From a virus: a stretch of 36,317 nucleotides of DNA. The stretch spans positions 1 through 36,317 of the IMG/VR virus record IMGVR_UViG_3300034198_015370. One strand, written 5' to 3'. Positions 2,595 to 29,581 of the stretch are shown here, piece by piece (positions within the stretch are counted from its first letter, which is position 1; every line of letters starts with the position of its first letter). The translations under genes were made by a program, and so were the position numbers. The notes below the pieces were generated by a model, which was not told where the DNA came from, searched no databases, and saw only the letters and a list, made by a program, of their open reading frames with translations.

Positions 2595-2624
2595 AAAGGG
2601 AGCTTCGGCTCCCTTTTTTTTTTT
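2595..2624 (+). terminator. strong intrinsic terminator after gp32
   Basis: GGGAGC (2598-2603), a TTCG tetraloop, and GCTCCC (2608-2613) form a perfect stem, extendable by three A-T pairs, followed by eleven T residues (2614-2624). It sits between the convergent gp32 gene and the 740-residue minus-strand gene. Read leftward, the same hairpin is followed only by TTTC, so it should act weakly in that direction. Confidence 0.95.
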
Positions 2625-4845
2625 ATGCCGTGAATTGCAAATTCTTCATTTGCTCGTTGAATAGACCACTTCTCATCAAATCGCCAAAGAACGAATTATC
2701 AGAAACTCGCATATCATTACTGCCGTTATAATCAGAAGAAGAAGAGTTCAACTGTGTTCTTTGACCACCAGCCTGTTGCTGACTTTGTGCTGCATTTGAT
2801 TCTTCAGAGGCTCTAATAGCGGCTTGTCTTGATCTATCCTCTAAAGAAGATTGCTGTACAGCTGTTTGCTGTAGCATAGAGGTCCTTTCTGTTCTTGGAC
2901 CCATCATAGTTCCTGCGCCAGTCAACCCTCCTAACAATAAACCTGCTAACCCACCTAGAGCAGCTCCTCTGCCGCCTCCGATCATACCACCCATCATAGC
3001 TAGTGGGTTGGCTCCCATACCCATACCAGGCTGCATACCCATACCCATTTCTTGAGGACCTCCCATTGGTCCACCGCCCATAGTTTGAGCCATCGGTATG
3101 CCGTGAAACCTTTGCATCATAGCAGCTTCTCGGTAACTCATACCGCCGCTCTCGCCGCCCATTCCCCCTGTGCCGCCCCCTGATCCACCACCATATTGAC
3201 CACCGCCTGGAGCTCCTGCGCCGCCCCCTGGTCCACCGCCATATTGTTTTCTGCCTGGAGCGCCTCCTACGGCTTCCTGCAGCCAACCAGCGGCGTTGCT
3301 ACCTTTGCCACCAGCTCCCCAAATAGCTTCTTGGCCGAAACCAACGTGAATTCTAGAGCCACCCATGTAGTCTTCGCCAGCTCCGATTCCTGTTGCTCCT
3401 CCTGCGTGAGCTGCAGCAACGAATTTTTTCATAATAGCTTGATCAGCTTTACTGGCTGGGTTCAATTGTCTATCGCCTATGAATAGGTCGACATCAGCAG
3501 CGTTACCGTTATCATGTCTAGTAGAACCAGTTCTAGCACCACCCTGGCCAGCGGCAGGTTGTCCTCCAGATTTAACTCTAACAGTTACACCACCAGATTC
3601 ATCGGCAGCTTTTTGTAACACACCTTTCAGCTTCTGACTGATTGGTAATTTTCTAGTAGCAGCTTCTCTCCCTTGATCTTCTATAACTTGACCGCCACCA
3701 GAGCTTGATTGACCTTGTTCGCCTCCAGCTCCACCTAAAGCTGGAGTTGCTCCTGGTCTTTGTTGTGCAGTAGCGTTAGGCTGACCTGATTGAGCAGCTG
3801 GAGTTGCTCCTGGAATTTGTTGTGCAGTAGCGTTAGGCTGACCTGATTGAGCAGCTGGTGTAGTATTAACTGTAGAAGCATCGCCTTGTAAACCAGCAGC
3901 TGCTACATTTTGATTGTATTTTTTTAACCAAGAAGATTGGTAAGTTTGTGCAGTTTGACCCCTGTTAACCGTTAATGCTTTGGGACTCATATTGCCTTCT
4001 GGGTTGCCCGTGTACCAAACATTAGGAACTTTGGAAACGTCACCCTTAACTCTCACTAAAATTTCTTTGATATAATTTTTAGCAACAGCATCTTGAAGTT
4101 CTGGCGGAGCCATCATAGCTCTAGGGAACATTTGAACATCTACGCCGATTTTTTGAGCTTGAGCTTTCCAAGTGCTATCAGTAAATTGATACCCGCCAGA
4201 AGCAGTAGAACCTTGACCTTCAGCAAAACTTGGGTTGCGGTAAGAGTTAGGTGATTCTTTACCTTTGATTGTTTTTCTTATTAATTCTACTTTTTGTTCT
4301 TCAGTGCCCGCAAATTGAGCTACACCGCCACCTGGTATATTTCCTCCAGGTTCCCCAACTGTAGTTCCTCTACCTGCCACATAGCCAGCGCCACCCGCAG
4401 CCAAAGCTCCAGCACCTGCAGCTGCTATCGTAGCATATTTACCAAAAACCCTTCCAGCAAGTTTTTTTGCCCAACCAGTAATACCTCCTCCGTCACCATC
4501 TCCTTCTTTTTTACCGCCCGCAGCATTATCATCAAGAGATTTTTTAATATCTCTCAAAGTCGAAAGCATATTTTGCTGTATCTGAATAGACTGTTGAAGA
4601 ATACTATTATTGTTTTCTATTTTAGAAGCAGTTTGTTGAGACTGAGTGTTTAAGGTGTTGATACTAGAAATCATTTCATTGTAATTGGTCTTATTACTAG
4701 AAAAAACGTTACTAATATCTTTAATAACCTTTGAAATGTTTTTGTTATGTTCTCCAGCCGCTTGCTTAAAGCTATTTGTCACATTACCCATAGTGGAAAT
4801 GTGTTTAGCAAGTTGTGATATACCTGAAGATTCTTGACCAGCCAT
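2623..4845 (-). CDS. virion cell-wall hydrolase with transglycosylase-like and M15-type peptidase motifs; possible tape measure
   Basis: This is a 740-residue protein. Residues 1-110 look like a coiled coil. Residues 137-158 are a hydrophobic Gly/Ala stretch. Residues 190-310 resemble a lytic transglycosylase fold, with E197 in KGKESPNS and GGYQFTDSTW at 217-226. Residues 400-520 resemble an M15/VanY-type peptidase: S-x-H-x-x-G-x-A-x-D at 441-451 (H444, D451) and RIHVGFG with H500. The C-terminal third is rich in Gly and Met, with a second hydrophobic stretch near 618-645. It starts 3 bases after the gp51 stop, where lambda-like phages place the tape measure after the chaperone pair, and tape measures often carry such domains. 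The function as tape measure is inference; wall hydrolysis during DNA entry is more secure. Confidence 0.7.
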   Translation of the reverse strand: MAGQESSGISQLAKHISTMGNVTNSFKQAAGEHNKNISKVIKDISNVFSSNKTNYNEMISSINTLNTQSQQTASKIENNNSILQQSIQIQQNMLSTLRDIKKSLDDNAAGGKKEGDGDGGGITGWAKKLAGRVFGKYATIAAAGAGALAAGGAGYVAGRGTTVGEPGGNIPGGGVAQFAGTEEQKVELIRKTIKGKESPNSYRNPSFAEGQGSTASGGYQFTDSTWKAQAQKIGVDVQMFPRAMMAPPELQDAVAKNYIKEILVRVKGDVSKVPNVWYTGNPEGNMSPKALTVNRGQTAQTYQSSWLKKYNQNVAAAGLQGDASTVNTTPAAQSGQPNATAQQIPGATPAAQSGQPNATAQQRPGATPALGGAGGEQGQSSSGGGQVIEDQGREAATRKLPISQKLKGVLQKAADESGGVTVRVKSGGQPAAGQGGARTGSTRHDNGNAADVDLFIGDRQLNPASKADQAIMKKFVAAAHAGGATGIGAGEDYMGGSRIHVGFGQEAIWGAGGKGSNAAGWLQEAVGGAPGRKQYGGGPGGGAGAPGGGQYGGGSGGGTGGMGGESGGMSYREAAMMQRFHGIPMAQTMGGGPMGGPQEMGMGMQPGMGMGANPLAMMGGMIGGGRGAALGGLAGLLLGGLTGAGTMMGPRTERTSMLQQTAVQQSSLEDRSRQAAIRASEESNAAQSQQQAGGQRTQLNSSSSDYNGSNDMRVSDNSFFGDLMRSGLFNEQMKNLQFTA
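3745..3858 (-). repeat. two tandem 57-base repeats in the linker of the hydrolase
   Basis: Two near-identical 57-base copies encode a 19-residue unit, TPAAQSGQPNATAQQ followed by I/R-PGA, at about residues 329-366. They lie in the Ala/Gln/Pro-rich linker between the two enzyme-like domains, where copy-number change would alter linker length. Confidence 0.85.
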
Positions 4846-18988: not shown

Positions 18989-21900
18989 ATGGCTATTTTA
19001 ACGACAAACCATAAAGTACAACTTGTCAATACTTTTATTGATTCTATAGAAAATAGCAAAAACTCATATTATTGCTTTGTGGGTAGAGCAGAACCTTGGT
19101 TAGACGCCAACGGTGATGTAAACGAAGCCAACGTGGAAATAGCTGTTGACTCTGTAAGCCAAAACGAACAAATCGTATACACTAATATGGTTTACGGTAA
19201 AAGGCTCGATAGTTCTGATATCATTCAAATGACAAAAAGATACAATTGGGTCAATAACTCTGTTTATGCCAGATATGATAATAATGATGCAGACTTATAC
19301 ACTAAGAATTTTTATGTTATAACTGACACTAATGATGTGTATAAGTGTATCCATAATGGGTTTTCTCCTTCTTACCCAAATGGCGTGCCTTCTGTTGTAA
19401 AACCGAGCGTAAGACAAACTTCGGGAAATTTCCAAACTTCTGATGGTTATATTTGGAAATACATGTTCACTTGTGATTCTACAGATTATGTTAATTTTCA
19501 AACTTCTAATTTTATACCTGTTAACCCAAATACAGATGTTAAAGACAATGCTGTTCCTGGAACTATTGATTTTATCACATTATCGAATGCAGGAAATAAT
19601 TATCAAATATACGAAGAAGATTTCCTAAAAGGCGTTGTTAATAACTACGTAGTTCAGTTGCCTGCTAATTCTTCTGTTACAGATAATATTTACGTAGGCT
19701 CAAGTATATACCTAAAAGCTGGTTCGGGTGCTGGTCAAATAAGATCTGTTTCCTCTTATGATGGTTTAACTAAGCAGTTAGGTGTGCAACCCGCTTTCAG
19801 CTACTATGAAAATTTGAAACTTTCAAATACAAACGGTTATTTCACTTTAGGTGATTTGGTTACCCAAAAAACCGAAACTATAACGTATTTGTATAACATT
19901 GGTTATTTTAATGTCAATGACTATTTGGTTCAGTCGGACACTGCCTCATATTTGAGAATTAGACAAGCAAACACTAGCACTTTCTTATTAGAAAATTTGA
20001 ATGACGTTGATCTATCAGCTAACACTCCTATTTTCAATACTTCAGAAACACATGAACAGAAAACTGGTACAGTAAATATTACCGACAATTCTATTTACGT
20101 AAACAGCGCTGTGGCTACCGCTTTCACTACTGATTATTCTGTAAACGATTACATCAGAATTGGTCCTGATGCTAACAATAATGTTAGAAGAGTCGTGGCA
20201 GTTAATTCTTCAGTAGTCACTGTTAATTTTCCTTTCGCTCAAAGTTTAACAGCAGCAAATAACTATCACGTTAATAACGCTATTACTGTTGATTCTATCA
20301 CTAGACATAGAGCAACTGGTTCTATCGTGTTTACGAATTTGACATCTGCTCAGCTTAACTACTCAAATGTAACGCCAGCGGGGCAATCGTTTATTGTAGG
20401 AGAATTGATTGATATCGTAGATGCAGCTAATACTTCTCAAGGCTCTAACGGTATCGTTTCATTTTCTAATGCGTCAACGCTTATTTTGACGGATGTTGGT
20501 GGTTCTATTACTGCAAATTACTATGTTTACGGTATGACTTCTAAAATTAAAGCATACATAGACTTAGCTGATTCTAGACCTAATATAACAGTTGATACTA
20601 TCACTGGTGGTTTCTACACTGGCGTTGGTGTAACTACCTTTTATGCGAATAGTGTTCCTAACGGTAACGCTTTCGTAGTTTCTAAAGAGTATTCACCGAA
20701 TGAAAGAACTGAATATATCATATCTCCTAAAGTTGATATTGAAGGCGATGGTAATGGCGCATTTGCGTATTGCACAGTAGATCTAAGCTCTAACAACCCA
20801 AACAGAAGCATTTCTTCTGTAGTGCTTATTGATGGCGGTAGTAATTACACTAGAGCTAACGTTAGTGTATCTGCAAATACCCTTTACGGTGATGGTGCTA
20901 TTGTAGAAGCTCAAATCAGCCCTGTTAATGGTCATGGTTACAACCCATACCAAGAGCTGGCTTCTACATATTGTGGTATTTCTAAAAAATTCGATACAGG
21001 TATCAACGAAGGTTATACTATACCTATGTATGGGTCTTATAGATCTATTGGTGTAATTAAAAATCCACAAATAGAAGATGTTATTTTTGAAATCAATAAT
21101 TTCGATAGAGCCAAATTGAATATAGCCAACACTAGCGGAGTTTTTGTTTTAAACGAAATAGTTGTACAAAGCTCTTCTAACAGCGCAGGTGTTGTAGCTT
21201 ACACTAACTCTACATTTTTAGAATTGAAAAATGTTAAAGGTACATTTACTAGCTCTTCAAATACTGCTAATACTCTTAGTGTGATTTATGGTTGGACCTC
21301 TGGCGCGAACTCGCATGTAACTTCTGCTAATGTTTCATATTTTACAGTTTCTAACACTTCAGAAACAATCGTAGACTCTGCAACTGGTGCTTCTGCTAGA
21401 ATAACACAAGTTATTTCTAACACTCAAATTAGAGTTTCGAATGTTGTTGGTTCTTTCTTAGATAACGATTATATTTACGAAGCCGCAAGCAACTCTTATG
21501 CTAATGTTTCTGTGATTTATACTTCTAATGGTAAAGTTGATTCTACTAGTAATTTCGGTAATAAAATCAATCAAACAGCTAGAATAACATTAGCTTCTAA
21601 CACAAAACCTTTCGCATTATATGAATACGTTACTCAAGATGTGACGTTTGCTACAGGCAGAGTTATTAGTAATGTAGACGAATTAGACATTTATTACGAT
21701 ACTGCTTCTGCTTGGGCGGTTGGTGATATTGTTGTAAACGATACTACAGGTTCTAATGCTATTATAACTTACGCAAATACTACAGCTCAATTTTTAAGAA
21801 TTTCTGCAGTAAACAATAATGGTTTCAACGAAACCACTAATAGACCATTTAATATTGGCGATAGTGTCAGAAATCTTAGCAGCACCAAAAATTCTACTAT

Positions 21901-22168
21901 AAATACTGTTTACAATGTTTTAATTTTAGACGATGTTAATAGAATTGTAAGCGGCAATACTACACCATTCTTAGGTAAGTTTCAAGTAGGCTCTTACGAA
22001 ATAACAGGTAATACTTCAGGGGCTGCGGCAACTGTAACTCTTGAAAATTCTATTAAGCAACCTGATTTCGTTAGAGAAAGTGGAGAAGTGATTTATTTCG
22101 AAAACATAAGTAAATTCGATAAAACTCCGAATTCTACAGAGCAATTAAAATTAATTATTAAATTCTAG
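18989..22168 (+). CDS. 8: gp8-like baseplate wedge protein, greatly enlarged
   Basis: The N-terminal 200 residues match gp8 of marine T4-like phages: a helix with VNTFIDSIENSKNSYYCFVGR (about 12-32), AEPWLD, YNWVNNSVYARYD (about 85-97), the YVITDTNDVYKCI segment, and a QTSDGYIWKYMFTC motif around 149-162. T4 gp8 has 334 residues and forms a dimer in the wedge; this protein has 1059. The extra 850 residues are beta modules, many of the type G-x-F-x-x-(N/G)-(D/E) followed by Asn/Ser-rich turns (for instance around 19830, 21130-21300 and 21430-21530). The C-terminus returns to a conserved block with PDFVRESGEVIYFENI, as in smaller gp8 proteins. The insertions probably form outward decorations. 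Confidence 0.8.
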   Translation: MAILTTNHKVQLVNTFIDSIENSKNSYYCFVGRAEPWLDANGDVNEANVEIAVDSVSQNEQIVYTNMVYGKRLDSSDIIQMTKRYNWVNNSVYARYDNNDADLYTKNFYVITDTNDVYKCIHNGFSPSYPNGVPSVVKPSVRQTSGNFQTSDGYIWKYMFTCDSTDYVNFQTSNFIPVNPNTDVKDNAVPGTIDFITLSNAGNNYQIYEEDFLKGVVNNYVVQLPANSSVTDNIYVGSSIYLKAGSGAGQIRSVSSYDGLTKQLGVQPAFSYYENLKLSNTNGYFTLGDLVTQKTETITYLYNIGYFNVNDYLVQSDTASYLRIRQANTSTFLLENLNDVDLSANTPIFNTSETHEQKTGTVNITDNSIYVNSAVATAFTTDYSVNDYIRIGPDANNNVRRVVAVNSSVVTVNFPFAQSLTAANNYHVNNAITVDSITRHRATGSIVFTNLTSAQLNYSNVTPAGQSFIVGELIDIVDAANTSQGSNGIVSFSNASTLILTDVGGSITANYYVYGMTSKIKAYIDLADSRPNITVDTITGGFYTGVGVTTFYANSVPNGNAFVVSKEYSPNERTEYIISPKVDIEGDGNGAFAYCTVDLSSNNPNRSISSVVLIDGGSNYTRANVSVSANTLYGDGAIVEAQISPVNGHGYNPYQELASTYCGISKKFDTGINEGYTIPMYGSYRSIGVIKNPQIEDVIFEINNFDRAKLNIANTSGVFVLNEIVVQSSSNSAGVVAYTNSTFLELKNVKGTFTSSSNTANTLSVIYGWTSGANSHVTSANVSYFTVSNTSETIVDSATGASARITQVISNTQIRVSNVVGSFLDNDYIYEAASNSYANVSVIYTSNGKVDSTSNFGNKINQTARITLASNTKPFALYEYVTQDVTFATGRVISNVDELDIYYDTASAWAVGDIVVNDTTGSNAIITYANTTAQFLRISAVNNNGFNETTNRPFNIGDSVRNLSSTKNSTINTVYNVLILDDVNRIVSGNTTPFLGKFQVGSYEITGNTSGAAATVTLENSIKQPDFVRESGEVIYFENISKFDKTPNSTEQLKLIIKF

Positions 22169-22176
22169 AGGAAATA

Positions 22177-25100
22177 ATGGCATCGAACAATTCTCTACTT
22201 GATACCAATTTAAACGCCAGTCCGTATTTTGATGATTTTGATCCAACTAAACAGTTTTATAAAATCTTGTTTAAACCAAGAACTGCGGTTCAAACTAGAG
22301 AATTAAATCAGCTTCAAACTGTTTTGCAAAATCAAATTGCAAGTTTTGGTCAAAACATTTTTAAAGAAGGTTCGGTAATCAAGGGATGTTCTTTCACCTT
22401 TGACAACAAATACGCTTACGTTAAACTCGTAGATACCTACGCGAACGGAACAGCATTGACCGTTTCAGATTTGAACGGTCTTATCGTTAATAACCCGAAT
22501 GGTTTGCAAGCAAAAATTATTGATTATCAGGAAGGCAGAATTACTGCAGATCCTGACCTTAATACCATTTATATGAAATATTTGAATAGTGGTACTTATT
22601 CTAATGGTGTATCTCAATCGCAATTTGATGCGAGTGATATATTAAGTTTTTATACGGTAGCTAACACATATCAGGGGCAAGTATTAGCTGCTAATGTTAG
22701 CAACGTTGCTGGTTTCGGTTACGCATTTACAACAACTGAAGGTATCATATTCAAAAAGGGGTACTTCATTTATGTAACTCCTCAAACTTCAATTATCTCA
22801 AAATACAGTAATGTTCCTGATAATATTTCTGTAGGTTTCGACGCTAAAGAAAGCATTGTTACTTCTAATATAGACGACTCATTATTCGATAATGCTGCTG
22901 GGTCTCCTAACTATGCTGCACCAGGCGCAGACAGACTTAAACTAGAATCAACACTCGTAACTAGACAATCTTCTTATTCTAACACCGAAGCGTTTTTTGC
23001 ACTCGTAGATTTTAAAAACGGTGTGCCTGTAACTATTAGAAATGATACCCAATTTAATTCTGTTGCTAAAGAAGTAGCACGTAGAACTCACGAAACAAAT
23101 GGTAATTTCGTAGTAAATCCTTTTGTTGTAACTTCTAAAGCAATCGCTAATACTTCTGACCCTAGTTACGCCAACAACTTTAATGCTACAGTAAGTAAAG
23201 GATTGGGTTACGTAGAAGGTTATAGAGTAGAATTTTTAAACAACACAACTAAACAGGTAAGAAGAGGTGTAGATTATAACACTATTTACCAGCAGGGTGT
23301 ATCTTTAAATTTTGGTTACTATGTATTAGCTCAAGAGCTTTCTGGCGATTTTGGTGATTCGAGCGCTATCGTTCAAATCGAATTACACAACGTAGCAAAA
23401 ACTTCTATAACTAGCAGAACTTACCTTGCGTCTGGATATTCTTCTACTACCAAAATAGGTACAGCTTATATCAAGGGGTTTGCTTACGACAATGGCAACC
23501 AAGGAACTGCAGGTAGCCAATATAGAGTTTACCTATTCAATATTGCTATGAATCCTGGTAGCAACTTCTCAGATGTTAAAAGTTTGATATACAGAAGCGG
23601 CGGCGCCAACAAAGGTGTTGCAGACGTTGCATTAAGCTATAACTTAACTTCTAATACCGATATAGCTAAAATTTATAGTTCTACTTTGAATAGTATGATT
23701 TACCGTTTTGGTCAAAAGGCGTTAAAGTCTGATGGTTTCGGTAATACTTCTTTCTATTATAGAAAAATTGCAAATTCACAAATGTTGGTGGGGGGCACTG
23801 CTACTGTTGGTATCAGTATTCCTTCAGGCACTGGTTCAGAAACCTTTTCTTATTCTGGAACTCTTTCTACTACTCAAATGAATGATTTTATTGTCACTCC
23901 TTTGGCAAATGGTTATTCAACCAATAAAACTAGTACTGTGCAAACTTATTCTGATAATACAGCAGTTAGAGGAACATCTACTTTATTTGCAGCAGAATAT
24001 GCAGTTGGGGATACGATTTACATAAACTCTACTTTGAGAACAATTTTATCTATTTCTAATAATATTTTTCTATCACTAGATGCTAACAGTACTTCAAATT
24101 CTTCTGGTTTGAGTCACCAAAAAGCATTCATTACAGGCAACCCTATACCATTCAGTATTTCTAGACCGTCTAGAAGTATGAGCATTGCTGCAAATACTTT
24201 GACGATTACTTTGGGTGATTCTGCTAATGCAGCTTTCAATATTCAAGTAACTCACACATTAAAGCGTGCTGCTACTACTTCTGTTCAAAAACAAATCAAT
24301 AAAGGCGTATATGTAAAAATTGATTGTTCTAATAATTCTGGCGGTGTGAATGGTCCTTGGAGCCTTGGTCTCCCAGACGTCTACGCGATCGAAGGAATTT
24401 ACTTAGATACTACTGGTAATAAGGCATATACTGCATCTGGTACAAATTTCGCCAATAGTTTCATATTGGACAACGGTCAAAGAGACAGTCATTACGATAT
24501 CGCAAGTTTGAGTGCTGCTAGTCCTGCTGTAGTAAACAAGTTAAATTCTAATACAGTTATGCTAGTTAAGTTGTCTACTTTCACATACAACGTTTCACAA
24601 GGTAAGGGTTTCTTTAACGCTAATTCTTATCCGATTGATGACGCTAATGTTTCTAATACGACAGCTATTACAACTTCTCAAATCCCATATTATGTTGCTT
24701 CTACTGGTGACTTTTACGATTTGAGAGACTGTTTAGATTTTAGACCTTACGGTTCGAATACTGCCGCAGTAACTTCTACAATCGGTTCTGCGACAGTTAA
24801 TCCTACAAGCACACTATCTTTCAATTACACTCCTTATCTTCCTGCGCCAGATAGTATTTTCCAGTCTGATGTTCAATATTACATGGGAAGAACAGATAGA
24901 CTCGCTTTAGATATTGGTGGTAATTTAGTTGTTACTGAAGGTCTACCTGATGTAAACAACCCTGCTGCACCTATCGAGCGTAGCGGTACTATGACTTTGT
25001 CCCTATTGAAAATCCCACCTTATCCTTCATTAACTACTGATGAAGCTAGAGCTTTCCGTAGATACGACAACGCTATTCAAACACAGCCTACACAAAATAG

Positions 25101-25764
25101 ACGTTATACTATGAAAGACATTGCTGGGTTTGATAAGAGAATTACAAACTTAGAATATTACACCTCGTTGTCTTTATTAGAATCTTCAGCTGCCACGCTT
25201 CAAGTAAGAAGCACTGCTACTGGTCAGAATAGATTCCAAAATGGTATTTTCGTAGACCCATTCAATGGTTTCGATTTATCTAATACTAAGCATCCTAAAT
25301 TTTATATTGCTATGGATCCATCTAGAACAGAATTGAGACCTGCTTTTGCTCAGTTTAGATCTGATTTCACTTTTGATTCGACCTTGAGTTCTGGTGTTCA
25401 GAAACATGGCGATTTAGTTATGTTGCCGCACACTAGCAATAATGTTTTGATTCAGCAAGGGTTTGCGTCTAAATACAGAAACTGTATAGAAGGTAACATA
25501 TATAATTGGAAAGGTGTGATTACACTTTCACCTACTGGTTCTGCTGCTCCAGATTTGACTACTTCACCAGACATTACAAATAGTATCGATCTTGCGCAAA
25601 ACTGGGTAAATCTTGAAAATGCTTGGGGAACTCAATGGGGTAATTGGGAAACGATTAGTACAACTTATGCTAACACTTTGATTACGGCATCTAATACTAC
25701 TTCTCAACATGTTGCTAATACTCCAGCAACATTACTCAATACTTCTACTCAATGGACAAAATAA
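22177..25764 (+). CDS. large virion structural protein, DUF4815-like
   Basis: This 1195-residue protein opens with NLNASPYFDDFDPTKQFYKI and the KPRTAVQTRELNQLQTVLQN block (about 11-50), which I associate with DUF4815 structural proteins of marine phages. Further on come VAKEVARRTHETNGNFVVNPF (about 288-308), SKGLGYVEGYRVEF, YDLRDCLDFRPYGSN (about 848-862), FDKRITNLEYYTSLSLLE (about 986-1003) and a Trp-rich end (NWVNLENAWGTQWGNWE, about 1150-1166). The role is unknown; I take it to be part of the outer baseplate or its spike and fibre attachment. It starts 8 bases after gp8 and ends 12 bases before the Hint protein, so these three are one unit. Confidence 0.65.
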   Translation: MASNNSLLDTNLNASPYFDDFDPTKQFYKILFKPRTAVQTRELNQLQTVLQNQIASFGQNIFKEGSVIKGCSFTFDNKYAYVKLVDTYANGTALTVSDLNGLIVNNPNGLQAKIIDYQEGRITADPDLNTIYMKYLNSGTYSNGVSQSQFDASDILSFYTVANTYQGQVLAANVSNVAGFGYAFTTTEGIIFKKGYFIYVTPQTSIISKYSNVPDNISVGFDAKESIVTSNIDDSLFDNAAGSPNYAAPGADRLKLESTLVTRQSSYSNTEAFFALVDFKNGVPVTIRNDTQFNSVAKEVARRTHETNGNFVVNPFVVTSKAIANTSDPSYANNFNATVSKGLGYVEGYRVEFLNNTTKQVRRGVDYNTIYQQGVSLNFGYYVLAQELSGDFGDSSAIVQIELHNVAKTSITSRTYLASGYSSTTKIGTAYIKGFAYDNGNQGTAGSQYRVYLFNIAMNPGSNFSDVKSLIYRSGGANKGVADVALSYNLTSNTDIAKIYSSTLNSMIYRFGQKALKSDGFGNTSFYYRKIANSQMLVGGTATVGISIPSGTGSETFSYSGTLSTTQMNDFIVTPLANGYSTNKTSTVQTYSDNTAVRGTSTLFAAEYAVGDTIYINSTLRTILSISNNIFLSLDANSTSNSSGLSHQKAFITGNPIPFSISRPSRSMSIAANTLTITLGDSANAAFNIQVTHTLKRAATTSVQKQINKGVYVKIDCSNNSGGVNGPWSLGLPDVYAIEGIYLDTTGNKAYTASGTNFANSFILDNGQRDSHYDIASLSAASPAVVNKLNSNTVMLVKLSTFTYNVSQGKGFFNANSYPIDDANVSNTTAITTSQIPYYVASTGDFYDLRDCLDFRPYGSNTAAVTSTIGSATVNPTSTLSFNYTPYLPAPDSIFQSDVQYYMGRTDRLALDIGGNLVVTEGLPDVNNPAAPIERSGTMTLSLLKIPPYPSLTTDEARAFRRYDNAIQTQPTQNRRYTMKDIAGFDKRITNLEYYTSLSLLESSAATLQVRSTATGQNRFQNGIFVDPFNGFDLSNTKHPKFYIAMDPSRTELRPAFAQFRSDFTFDSTLSSGVQKHGDLVMLPHTSNNVLIQQGFASKYRNCIEGNIYNWKGVITLSPTGSAAPDLTTSPDITNSIDLAQNWVNLENAWGTQWGNWETISTTYANTLITASNTTSQHVANTPATLLNTSTQWTK

Positions 25765-25776
25765 CAGGACCTAACA

Positions 25777-27069
25777 ATGGCAGGAACTTTATCTACAACA
25801 ACTACACAAACATTACAAACTACTCAAAGTTTGATGCAGCAGGTTGGTACGCAGTTAAATAACAGCATCTCTGATGTAAACTATAACTTGGGTAATTTCG
25901 TAACTAACGTTAGTATTTTACCATTCATAAAATCAGCGGTTGTGCAGTTTGATGCTATCGGGCTTAAACCTAATACTAGATTGTATGCATATTTTGGTAA
26001 CGTTCCTATGTCTGCTTATTGCGCTCCAACTTTAGCAGGTTATAGTCAAGATACTATAGAAAATTCTCAAAAAGTTCAGCCTTACGGCACTCCATTATAT
26101 AGCAATAGCTCAGGTGGTATTAATGGAGTTTTCCAAATACCTTCTAATACGTTTAAATCTCAAGAAATAACTTTTAAACTCCTTGATATTTCTGATTTGG
26201 CTCAAGGTGAAGATGCAATAACAACCGAAGCTGACGGTGTATATTATGGCAGCACTTTATCTGTAGCTAAAGGTAGTAGTTTCTTAAATACTAGACAAAC
26301 TGTTGTTTCTTCTACAGAAGTTACGCAAAATACTGTTATCAATGGTTTAGGTTTGAGTACACAAATAACTCAGCAATATGTTGCGGACCCGCCGCCTCGC
26401 TCTGGAGGTTCTGGTTGTGGTTGCGGTTGTTTCGTTTATGACACAAAAGTTCTATTGGAAAATGGGACCACAGTCAATATTTCAGAAATTAAAATTGGTG
26501 ATAGAGTTTATAATCACGACAAAACTTCTTTAAATGAAGTTAAATTTGTTGAAACTGTAAGCGATAAATATTTCGAAAACCTATACTCGCCGAATAAAAA
26601 TATCAAACCATTTGCTACAGTCAATCACCCAATTTACATCGATGGCGATCTCGCGAGTGTCGACCCCGATAAGAATTTAAATTGGTATCCTTGGTTGGGT
26701 AAAAATAATAAGGTAGAAGCTATTTTCGCTCCCACAACTGGGCAAAAAGTTTACAACCTTTGGGTTGACGGAGACGGTACATACACTGTCAACGGGTTTG
26801 GTACTACCTCTATAATCGGCGATGGTGGTTTACTACGTTTGGGTATTGAACAGGGCATCATAACGATGCAAGATGCTACTGATATTATGATATATTACAC
26901 TGAAAAATCAAAAGCTGCAGTTTATGGTTCTTATATTTTGAATAAAGTTTTCGCGAAATTGAATATCAAGTGGGTCAATAGATTTGTTCTTAATTCTCTA
27001 AAAGGTCAAGGACTTGCTAAGAAATTTTTTGATGTAACATTCACTTTAGCTGGTAAAGTAGCATCATAA
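25777..27069 (+). CDS. structural protein carrying a Hint (hedgehog/intein) domain
   Basis: Residues 1-205 are a beta-rich structural part (FIKSAVVQFDAIGLKPNTRLYA at 50-71, GGINGVFQIPSNTF at 113-126). Then a Gly/Ser/Cys linker leads to C218, which starts a Hint domain: CFVYDTKVLLENG, ISEIKIGDRVY (235-245, block A), FATVNHPIYI (279-288, block B with H284) and YNLWVDGDGTYTVNGFGTTS (326-345, block F). The last 85 residues are mostly helical. Hint domains convert a peptide bond to a thioester at the first cysteine and then splice, cleave or ligate. The terminal His-Asn and following nucleophile of inteins are absent, so true splicing is unlikely; cleavage or cross-linking at C218 fits better. The next gene looks like the rest of the same ancestral protein. 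Confidence 0.8.
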   Translation: MAGTLSTTTTQTLQTTQSLMQQVGTQLNNSISDVNYNLGNFVTNVSILPFIKSAVVQFDAIGLKPNTRLYAYFGNVPMSAYCAPTLAGYSQDTIENSQKVQPYGTPLYSNSSGGINGVFQIPSNTFKSQEITFKLLDISDLAQGEDAITTEADGVYYGSTLSVAKGSSFLNTRQTVVSSTEVTQNTVINGLGLSTQITQQYVADPPPRSGGSGCGCGCFVYDTKVLLENGTTVNISEIKIGDRVYNHDKTSLNEVKFVETVSDKYFENLYSPNKNIKPFATVNHPIYIDGDLASVDPDKNLNWYPWLGKNNKVEAIFAPTTGQKVYNLWVDGDGTYTVNGFGTTSIIGDGGLLRLGIEQGIITMQDATDIMIYYTEKSKAAVYGSYILNKVFAKLNIKWVNRFVLNSLKGQGLAKKFFDVTFTLAGKVAS

Positions 27070-27097: not shown

Positions 27098-29581
27098 ATG
27101 AAGCCGATTGGTCAGACGTTCTATATTAATGAAACAGGTGCTGGTGTGCCTGGTGTTTTTATCACTAAAGTTGATGTTTATTTTAAATCTGTAAGTTCTA
27201 CGTTTGGTATAGAGCTACAAATTAGAACAACTGATAACGGCGCTCCTACCGTAGAGCGTTTACCGTTCGGTAGTAAATTTTTGTTCCCAACTAGTGCTAA
27301 CCCCCCAAAAGCTTCTGATAATGCCAGTGTTGCTACTACTTTCGAATTCGATACACCAGTATTTGTTCAATCAGGCAGTTCTTATGCTTTAGTTATGATA
27401 CCTATTGGTGGTAACCCAGATTATCAAGTTTGGACTGCTGAAATTGGTCAAAAAGATGCATTGACGAATTTACCAATTTATACCAATAATGAAACTGGTG
27501 ACCTATACCTTTCTTCTAACGATAAAAGCTGGATCCCTGTTATTACAGAAGATTGGAAATTCACAATCTATTCTGCTAATTTCACCTCGCTTTCGGGTAC
27601 AGCTATTTTTAGGTCTCCAGATGAAGACTATTTGGAAATCGAAGATTACATCAGTACATTTTACGAAGGTGAACCTCTTTACCCAGCTAACAACCAATAT
27701 AATGTATCAGTGTTAGGCGTTGCTGGTGTTAATGGTGCTTTCGTTAGTGGAGATTATGTATACCAATCAAACGGTACAGCAAACGTAGCTTATGGTTATG
27801 TTTATAGCGGTAATAGTACCTTTATCAAATTACAAAATACCACAGCTTCTTTTTCGAGCTCTTATAAACTGTATAATGCTAACTCTGTTTCTAATACAGT
27901 CGTTACTTCAGTTTCACAAAATGCTTCTATTATAGCTTCTTCAAATACTTTTTCAGTACCTGACAATAGTTTCTTTTCTACAAACGACGTTATCTATATT
28001 GCAACAAGTAATTTTTCTCAAGCTCAAATTGTCAGAGTTAAAGCTGTTTCATCAGACAACACAACTGTATCGTTTTCGAACGCATTTTTGAATAGTGTTA
28101 ATGTTTCTAGTTTTTCAGACACTAATTGCATATATGGTAAAATTAAGTTCAATGGTGCTTTGGTTGGTGGTTTTGGTGGCGGGGCGACCTACTCAGACTT
28201 TACTCGTATAATTTTGGATAACGTAAACGGAACACAAACTAACAACTTTGTTAGTGCAGTCGGTAAACGTTTGATCGGTCTGTATTCTGGAGCTTCTGCT
28301 AACATTCATAGTGTTTTTGATCCAAAATATAATCAAATGTCTCCGCAAATATCTCATATGGCTCCTTCTAATACAGATATTTCTTGGTCATTCAAGGGAT
28401 TTAAAAACGATAATAACTACGCAGAAGACGGTTCTTACATAAACATTTCTGAAGGTATTTCTAACGAGTTTATCGATCATGAACGTCTTGCAATGTCTAG
28501 AAGTAATGAGCTTACCAATTTGCCTATCGGTAGAGTTGGCGACCGTTCAGTTAAAATTAAAGCTACTTTAGATTCTGCTAACACTAAGATCTCACCAGTT
28601 ATTGACGTGTTGTCTAAATTCTCTCACTTCACATTCAATATGTGTGTGCCAGAAAACGATTTGACTGGTTACTATTTGACAATCAGTAACACAAATGGTT
28701 CTTTCTCTAACGGTATGTCTTCGTATCAGGGTAATGCTACTGGCACTGTAAAGTTTGCTAATACTACGTTCTTGAGGCTTGTTGATGCGGCTAATGATGT
28801 GTTTGCTGCAAACAGTACCACTATAAAAGGTTCTACTAGCTCGACAAATGCGACTATCAACAATGCTGAATATTATAGCGAAGCTTTAGACAATGGTTAT
28901 TTTGGCACTTCAAGATACATTTCGAAAAATATCATTTTGGCTGCTGGTCAAGATTCAGAAGACATTTTAGCATTCTTAGCTGCTTACAGACCACAGTCTA
29001 CCAATTTGAAGGTTTATGCGAAAATTCAAAATGGTCAAGACTCTGATACATACAACTCAAAAGATTGGTCTGAATTAAAAGAAAGAACTTCTGATTCGCT
29101 TCAAAGCAGTCAAGTCGATAAAAACGATATCGTAGAACTTTCTTTCGGTTTTCCTCAGAGTTACAATATTTCTCCTAATAATAATGTATGTAATACTACA
29201 TCAAATGTTATTTCTATAGGTTCTCCATACTCAACAGCTGGTTTGGTATATGGTGATTATGTCTATGTTTCAGACGCTGACACTAAGAAATTCAACGTAA
29301 GAAAAGTTGTATTGGTTAACAATGCTTCTGCAGTAACAGTTGATAAAGTTCCTTCTATAAATTCTGCATCGAACGTAGCTTTTGGTGTTATACCAGATTT
29401 AATTTCGGCTTCAGGAGCTTTCTTAAACGATCAAAATAATGACATCGTAAGGTATGTAACTAATACTGATTTGGTATTTGATACGTATTCTCAGTTTTCT
29501 ATTAAAATTGTTCCAGTTTCTAACACGACTGCGATTGTGCCTAGAGTTGCGGATATGAGAGTTCTAGCTGTTCAGTCTTAA
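27098..29581 (+). CDS. large virion structural protein (apparent continuation of the Hint-split protein)
   Basis: The 827-residue protein starts abruptly with PIGQTFYINETGAGVPGVFI and TKVDVYFKS, a block that I recall as internal (DP-x-AQTF ... GVF-T-VD--F) in single-chain homologues of marine phages. The middle has recurring beta modules (NGAFVSGDYVYQSNG near 27724-27771; NGSFSNGMSSYQGNATGTV near 28693-28750). Around residues 420-480 a conserved block reads PQISHMAPSNTDISWSFKG, and near 610 to 680 a block with ILAAGQDSEDILAFLAAYRP and DWSELKERTSDS. The C-terminus has NNDIVRYVTNTDLVFDTYSQF and VADMRVLAVQS. It is probably part of the outer baseplate. Confidence 0.6.
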   Translation: MKPIGQTFYINETGAGVPGVFITKVDVYFKSVSSTFGIELQIRTTDNGAPTVERLPFGSKFLFPTSANPPKASDNASVATTFEFDTPVFVQSGSSYALVMIPIGGNPDYQVWTAEIGQKDALTNLPIYTNNETGDLYLSSNDKSWIPVITEDWKFTIYSANFTSLSGTAIFRSPDEDYLEIEDYISTFYEGEPLYPANNQYNVSVLGVAGVNGAFVSGDYVYQSNGTANVAYGYVYSGNSTFIKLQNTTASFSSSYKLYNANSVSNTVVTSVSQNASIIASSNTFSVPDNSFFSTNDVIYIATSNFSQAQIVRVKAVSSDNTTVSFSNAFLNSVNVSSFSDTNCIYGKIKFNGALVGGFGGGATYSDFTRIILDNVNGTQTNNFVSAVGKRLIGLYSGASANIHSVFDPKYNQMSPQISHMAPSNTDISWSFKGFKNDNNYAEDGSYINISEGISNEFIDHERLAMSRSNELTNLPIGRVGDRSVKIKATLDSANTKISPVIDVLSKFSHFTFNMCVPENDLTGYYLTISNTNGSFSNGMSSYQGNATGTVKFANTTFLRLVDAANDVFAANSTTIKGSTSSTNATINNAEYYSEALDNGYFGTSRYISKNIILAAGQDSEDILAFLAAYRPQSTNLKVYAKIQNGQDSDTYNSKDWSELKERTSDSLQSSQVDKNDIVELSFGFPQSYNISPNNNVCNTTSNVISIGSPYSTAGLVYGDYVYVSDADTKKFNVRKVVLVNNASAVTVDKVPSINSASNVAFGVIPDLISASGAFLNDQNNDIVRYVTNTDLVFDTYSQFSIKIVPVSNTTAIVPRVADMRVLAVQS

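Follow-up and report, generated by a model that had tools for sequence, protein, structure and literature searches.

A Hint domain with a conserved helical tail ends a VrlC baseplate protein of an uncultured phage and recurs on other phage tail proteins

The window, that is, the whole stretch of 36,317 nucleotides forming the viral record IMGVR_UViG_3300034198_015370, contains a baseplate gene whose product ends in a true Hint domain, as a family profile and a structural model confirm. Among the relatives of this protein, the alignment and the model show an intact active site for the first step of Hint chemistry (G217-C218, T281, and H284 in the window protein), with neither the Asn nor the +1 nucleophile of splicing or C-terminal release. 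We propose that Cys-1 probably forms a thioester with G217 and that the baseplate part of the protein is freed from the Hint domain and its tail by hydrolysis or thiolysis.

We first consider the identity of the domain. The first-pass annotation, made from the letters of the DNA, had claimed a Hint domain in a phage structural protein, with blocks A, B (H284), and F in order from C218. The window protein alone scores below every Pfam cut-off (Hom_end_hint, 23.9 bits versus 32.1; Hint, 20.7 versus 29.7; PT-HINT, 20.4 versus 27.7; Vint, 17.3 versus 27), so that its sequence by itself is no proof of a Hint domain, and for this reason we assembled a family of relatives by scanning viral contigs. 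A profile built from 38 of them matched BIL, PI-SceI, and Hedgehog structures with E values of 2.5e-5 to 0.09; the Clostridium BIL domain 2lwy was matched across nearly the whole Hint core (E = 1.1e-4) and the Hedgehog chains at E values of 0.02 to 0.09. The Pfam Hint family was matched by 36 of the 38 relatives at E <= 0.01, and one single-Hint relative, P0006, lies above its cut-off (29.9 versus 29.7). AlphaFold2, run with the family alignment on residues 210 to 430, gave a beta Hint core and five helices with a mean pLDDT of 94.2 and a pTM of 0.88. The best match among solved folds was BIL2 of Tetrahymena (6y75_B; Z 15.7, 126 aligned residues, rmsd 2.3), and other matches included the BIL domains 6tmm (Z 14.8) and 2lwy (Z 12.5), the gp41-1 intein as the best non-BIL fold (Z 12.8), Vint 8r2c (Z 11.9, 146 aligned residues), and Hedgehog 1at0 (Z 11.3); these VIA matches cover mostly model residues 6 to 139. 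Among the 50 matches listed from the predicted viral proteins of BFVD, the query-normalised TM-score was at most 0.51. Profile and model together confirm the Hint domain, and the claimed blocks are in place, block A beginning at C218 (CFVYDTKVLLENG) and blocks B and F/G following it (Table 1).

Table 1. Coordinates of the window gene, its neighbors, and the chains with Hint domains in a row (positions in the window unless a locus is named)
Feature	Position	Strand	Remarks
gp8-like baseplate wedge, same operon	18989..22168	+	1059 aa
Upstream gene, DUF4815, first part of VrlC	22177..25764	+	phrog_358 4-1163
Whole ORF: VrlC middle part, linker, Hint, helical tail	25777..27069	+	430 aa, stop at 27069
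N-part, aa 1-207, VrlC/DUF4815 middle part	25777..26397	+	phrog_358 positions from 1164, E 7.3e-18
Linker, aa 208-217, last residues S-G-C-G-C-G before Cys-1	26398..26427	+	Cys at -4 and -2
C218 codon, Hint Cys-1	26428..26430	+	predicted thioester former with G217; Cys in 61/61 chains covering the site
Hint core, aa 218-346	26428..26814	+	AlphaFold2 strands, Foldseek/VIA matches to Hint folds, profile search
Block B TxxH, T281-V-N-H284	26617..26628	+	T281 and H284, 61/61 each
Block F/G VYNLWVDGDGTYTVNGFGTTS, aa 325-345	26749..26811	+	T344-S345 at the His-Asn position of inteins
C-terminal tail, aa 351-430, five helices, net positive	26827..27066	+	AlphaFold2 model and charge count
Downstream gene, start MKPIGQTFY, last part of VrlC	27098..29581	+	phrog_358 1423-2054
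Array chain, L113	1153-6666		
Array chain, L098	1-6669		
Array chain, L045	1-2361		
Array chain, L120	4447-6651		

The gene lies in an operon for a contractile-tail baseplate, with a baseplate tail tube cap, wedge subunits, and gp8. Three adjacent genes match successive parts of the 2056-residue phrog_358 (Table 1); phrog_358 is VrlC, and the ORF studied here is the middle of three VrlC parts. In pelagimyophages, VrlC takes the place of T4 gp7 and is considered part of a two-layered baseplate (PMC7029224, available portion). A tblastn search matched 423 phage records, covering query residues 24 to 240 at most among the matches listed, and 459 records were matched with aa 1 to 207 as the query. 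VrlC is continuous over the joint in the Pelagibacter phages Mosig and HTVC008M (...NNPDP-LAQTF... in HTVC008M, with no CGC); the window joint reads ...VADPPPRSGGSGCGCG^C-Hint-tail-stop, followed by M-KPIGQTF... at the start of the next gene. DUF4815, the middle part, and the C-part form a single ORF in 13 of 14 Hint-free cultured phages (12 picked from hit lists and the two Pelagibacter phages). The Hint domain is not strictly the cause of the break, as VrlC of Xanthomonas phage X1 (L151, 3708-9502) is broken at the DUF/middle joint without one. We also rejected a split intein, because the next gene starts with MKPIGQTF 28 bases on, with its own Shine-Dalgarno-like site and no C-intein before the VrlC part. 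Other observations in the window include stretches 274-432 and 691-819 of the gp8-like protein, which match the VrlC C-part profile and hint at a shared repeated domain; a 740-residue ORF at 2623-4845 on the minus strand that matched nothing in Pfam or PHROGs and lies in a region of 46.7% G+C, where the surroundings have about 35%; and a tRNA-Ile gene (anticodon TAT) at positions 2 to 93, the very start of the record.

We found 64 unique Hint chains (unique meaning not contained in another chain), which became 62 after removal of the tail-less L018 and the chance match L071. Left out of the 62 are thus L020/L071 (DNA polymerase-like, chance match) and L018/L019/L070 (structural, ending in HNK, without a tail), and the near-copies that remain in the 62 are L051/L052, L039/L040, L063/L064, L034/L037, L124/L139, and L121/L123/L125. 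L018 (3-7232), truncated at its start, is at least 2409 residues long and ends in a single Hint domain (...VVHNK and stop). The Hint and tail were C-terminal in 62/62 chains, with no more than 21 residues after the module. VrlC was the carrier in 33 of them, 12 having the module at the middle/C-part joint, like the window protein, and 21 having it at the DUF/middle joint (two of the latter truncated at the 3' end). By our own grouping, the remaining carriers were gp5-like baseplate hub proteins with the module after the first domain (7 chains: L121, L123, L125, L135, L057, L063, and L064; PHROG E values of 6e-29 to 3.5e-33 in the three tested), Gly-rich or other virion structural proteins (6), small proteins with a hydrophobic stretch before Cys-1 (5), a podovirus-like protein (3), a 72-residue piece (2), and others (6). 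Each record had one tail-bearing Hint domain (32/32 distinct records, from sets of 14 and 21 with 3 shared). The DUF4815 frame was unbroken, at 2016 to 2032 aa, in four records with a gp5-like carrier and measured 1298 to 1808 aa in three VrlC-Hint records; in a DUF4815 search of 23 records, 16 gave no match, many of them being short. On a tree of 59 chains (omitting L041 and L132, which are truncated at the 3' end, and L069, truncated at the 5' end), the carrier label changed 17 times, against a shuffled mean of 36.1 and a least possible number of 7, and a fork supported at 99/97 joined the VrlC carrier L042 with the Gly-rich carrier L120. These changes and this fork indicate a restricted movement of the module from carrier to carrier, and its presence on different tail proteins points to a removable C-terminal unit independent of its carrier. 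Radical-SAM genes lie close to the Hint gene at several loci but showed no overall link with the module (9 of 28 Hint records, mostly fragments, versus 6 of 15 comparison records, made up of Achromobacter phage 2-1 and the 14 Hint-free VrlC phages). Downstream of the Hint gene, records G005, G029, and G018 (L047, L049, and L139) contain clusters of 9, 7, and 6 radical-SAM matches.

The single copy per record on varying tail proteins, the unbroken VrlC of phages whose module sits on a gp5-like protein, and the carrier changes on the tree would also suit a reading in which the Hint and tail are what the virion carries or drops and the structural protein is merely their carrier; polymorphic toxins place HINT before a C-terminal domain (PMC3482391, available portion). 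We regard this as improbable, since the tail has no known effector or toxin domain by Pfam or PHROGs, since PMC3482391 (available portion) reports that HINT has not been observed together with T6SS or PVC export, and since a Hint domain lacking HN cannot cut the tail off itself.

We then analyzed the residues of the active site. The Cys-1 column of the 62 chains held 60 C, one S, and one gap; the S comes from a misaligned row (L143, in which RRRRRCFTGDTLV precedes an insert) and the gap from a truncated contig (L069), so that Cys-1 is kept in every chain covering it. In the alignment of the Hint and tail, E259, at Hint position 42, was as invariant as T281 and H284 (61/61 each), and N339, T343, D333, W329, W306, and Y326 were found in 62/62 each. 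The general acid/base of Hedgehog Hog is an Asp, D303 (D46). The -1 residue was Gly in only 36 of 61 chains, as is G217 of the window protein, which weakens the case for the first-step chemistry proposed below. Thr B:7 and His B:10 assist the first step of intein splicing (PMC4031507, available portion), and in the TXXH motif of Hedgehog, changing His to Ala abolishes autoprocessing and changing Thr to Ala strongly lowers it (PMC9163320, likewise in part). The other end of the domain was altered, as the first-pass annotation had stated in declaring the C-terminal His-Asn and the nucleophile absent. The Asn position held S in 59 chains, T in 2, and D in 1, never Asn (0/62); the His position held T in 41, H in 12, S in 3, E in 3, P in 2, and Y in 1; and the +1 position was never C, S, or T (0/62). 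The F:4 residue, mostly Asp in inteins (PMC4031507, in its available portion), was N in 60 of 62 chains (N327 in the window). This Asn, together with the invariant E259 and T343, suggests that the chemistry may differ from that of Hog and BIL domains.

Because the residues that make the thioester are kept and those that finish splicing are lost, N-terminal cleavage at G217-C218 is predicted. Self-cleavage had been predicted for the window protein at the outset, and the Hint fold, the missing splicing end, and the conserved thioester half, seen in 62 relatives and a confident model, make cleavage at this bond the natural prediction. We propose that the gene product is probably a self-processing precursor. 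C218 would attack the carbonyl of G217 in an N-S acyl shift, the thioester would be resolved by water or a small thiol, and the baseplate part (aa 1-217) would be released from the Hint and tail (aa 218-430), similar to the N-terminal cleavage of Hog and BIL domains. Retention of Cys-1, Thr, and His, each in 61/61 chains, for structural reasons of the fold alone appears less likely from the sequences. The other outcomes proposed at first, namely, attachment through the thioester, cross-linking, or maturation of the baseplate, are speculative.

One such outcome would be ligation in trans, the N terminus of the next gene's product attacking the thioester and making VrlC one chain again. In favor of this, the gene after either VrlC site opens with the remainder of VrlC or with the part that follows, VrlC is one chain in nearly all of the Hint-free records (13 of the 14 mentioned above), and ligation by BIL domains without nucleophilic side chains is in print, by a title cited in PMC4031507 (available portion). 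The starts of the next genes vary, however (MKPI, MANE, MPYT, MATS, MSYN, MTTL...), and present no conserved nucleophile, and Xanthomonas phage X1 splits VrlC without any Hint domain. Moreover, the genes after the gp5-like carriers, which we take to resemble gp25 and gp6, are not the missing piece. We consider this ligation very improbable and find it unsupported as a general role; these starts and the occurrence of the module on gp5-like and other carriers also speak against a cross-link understood as a specific link to the next protein.

We also found at least six chains with Hint domains in a row: seven in L113, five in L098, four in L045 (cut at its start), three each in the close kin L050 and L051, and two in L120. 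The upstream Hint domains of these arrays end in HN-Lys (18/18 among those listed), followed by 1 to 18 residues up to the next Cys-1; the last one never has HN and alone bears the tail. In L113, a single Lys separates the Asn from the next Cys-1 in five of six joints, and Hint domains 3 to 6 are almost identical to one another. The upstream domains therefore keep both cleavage ends and the last one the first end only. These arrays bear on the possibility that the C-terminal domain is a degraded intein retained as a structural or trimerisation domain without chemistry. The lost splicing end, the chain ending at the domain, and the differing position of the VrlC break among phages could be taken that way, yet Cys-1, Thr, and His persist among widely diverged chains (identity to the window protein as low as 33%) and the upstream array domains keep HN; a dead domain is hardly to be expected.

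The tail, described in the first-pass annotation as helical, indeed forms five helices in the AlphaFold2 model (window residues 351-358, 364-377, 379-395, 398-409, and 413-429), although a model of the tail alone from the single sequence, without an alignment, was poor (pLDDT 52). In 60 chains its median length was 88 residues and its median net charge +7, with 59 of 60 tails positive. The median net charge per 100 residues was -2.1 for the N-part, -4.5 for the Hint core, and +8.0 for the tail, and the tail value exceeded both others in 57/57 chains. The tail is amphipathic. A transmembrane anchor was rejected, as just 2 of 60 tails contain a 19-residue stretch whose mean hydropathy reaches 1.6.

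The layout of a Hint domain and a C-terminal helical region is that of Hedgehog Hog (Hint and SRR/ARR), in which the thioester step leads to transfer onto a cholesterol that the helical region after Hint holds (PMC9163320, available portion). In the phage protein, the tail could similarly bring a nucleophile (a lipid, a sugar, or a partner amine) to the thioester, so that the baseplate part would be modified at G217. Such an adduct would agree with a tail that is, like the extra region of Hog, a conserved module folded with the Hint domain, and that is amphipathic and more positive than the core and N-part. However, the SCYA motif is absent, the positive charge of the tail may serve only for packing against the acidic core, and a strongly hydrophobic stretch is as rare as noted above; we judge the adduct rather unlikely. 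A fuller device at the tail tip, in which a thioester-activated baseplate, hub, or other tail protein would dock by the cationic tail on a membrane or partner and be joined covalently to a lipid or surface amine, for irreversible adsorption or membrane anchoring, with a C214/C216-C218 disulfide holding the reaction until reduction in the subclade of the window protein, we think unlikely. Under the cleavage that we favor, it may be, with less assurance, that the tail tunes the reaction through partner or membrane binding or through timing.

The disulfide concerns the linker. The unusual GSGCGCGC sequence pointed out in the first-pass annotation is present (GSGCGCG^C, the caret marking the start of the Hint domain) and is the trait of a small subclade, with Cys occupying -2 in 8 and -4 in 9 of the 62 chains; L028 and the cultured Achromobacter phage 2-1 likewise have an (X-C)n run ahead of Hint. 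In inteins, a Cys of the extein or of the intein itself is known to lock the catalytic Cys by a redox switch (PMC6195587, available portion), and by analogy a disulfide lock could apply to the CGCGC subclade, where, as a weaker suggestion, C214 or C216 paired with C218 might hold the reaction until reduced. With so few chains having Cys at -2, such a lock cannot apply to the family as a whole.

Hint chemistry is known from inteins, Hedgehog proteins, BIL domains, and toxins, and BUBL-type genes encode several Hint domains in one chain. BIL domains gave the best fold matches and share the thioester-forming half with the phage domain; their HN-type C-terminal cleavage end is absent from the tail-bearing Hint and present in the upstream array Hints, and the phage module differs further in its five-helix tail and its phage tail-protein carrier. 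Hedgehog Hog has, like the phage protein, an end-of-chain Hint, Gly-Cys-1, TXXH, no HN, and a helical region after Hint (SRR), which the phage tail resembles in layout; it differs in its SCYA motif after block F, where the phage has GTTSI, and in the carrier, a baseplate protein in the phage. For Vint 8r2c, the alignment (model residues 6-177) reaches into the first tail helices with just 15% identity, and Vint resides in eukaryotic VWA proteins, unlike the phage module. PT-HINT likewise serves to cut large surface or secreted proteins, but there a toxin follows the Hint, in place of which the phage has a conserved tail of no known toxin family. Cys-1, Thr B:7, and His B:10 of class 1 inteins are met by C218, T281, and H284, whereas His G:6-Asn G:7, the +1 Cys/Ser/Thr, and the C-extein are absent. 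Phage inteins (in TerL, RNR, and helicase) have the Hint fold as well but, in the available portions of the sources, are spliced out of enzymes. In Achromobacter phage 2-1, the 480-aa protein WKV22028.1 (L170, 5185-6627), encoded beside the Tal hub, has a Hint domain at its end after an NCNCDCNCSC run, with SEEH instead of TxxH and no such tail seen; a radical-SAM gene lies two genes on.

We then searched for the module more widely. By tblastn in 50,697 phage records, the window Hint half had no match (E limit 1), L027, L059, and L066 had none (E limit 0.01), and L125 had a single partial match, in a P-loop protein of a Vibrio phage, with no Hint and tail; no cultured member of the family was found in these records. 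Two array queries gave, among the matches listed, partial Hint matches only, in helicase-annotated, intein-bearing, and hypothetical proteins, including the Achromobacter phage 2-1 chain. PHROGs held no family for the window module, and five of its families were matched weakly, by 1 to 7 of the 38 members. In bacterial genome contigs there was one match, L072, VrlC with Hint on a 3960-base contig of an Erysipelotrichaceae MAG, which is possibly a phage contig binned by mistake. No description of such a Hint-plus-tail module on a tail protein was found in the literature covered, which was open-access. What looks new is the carrier, the conserved tail, and the rows of Hint domains, on a fold and a chemistry already known.

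Here, many uncultured phages carry Hint on their tail proteins as a mobile C-terminal module that has its own tail. If it is active, these tail proteins would be cut or chemically modified by a domain that they themselves carry, a route not found in the literature searched. An active family would also supply natural, compact domains for N-terminal cleavage, as well as poly-Hint chains from nature with which to test the action of Hint domains in series.
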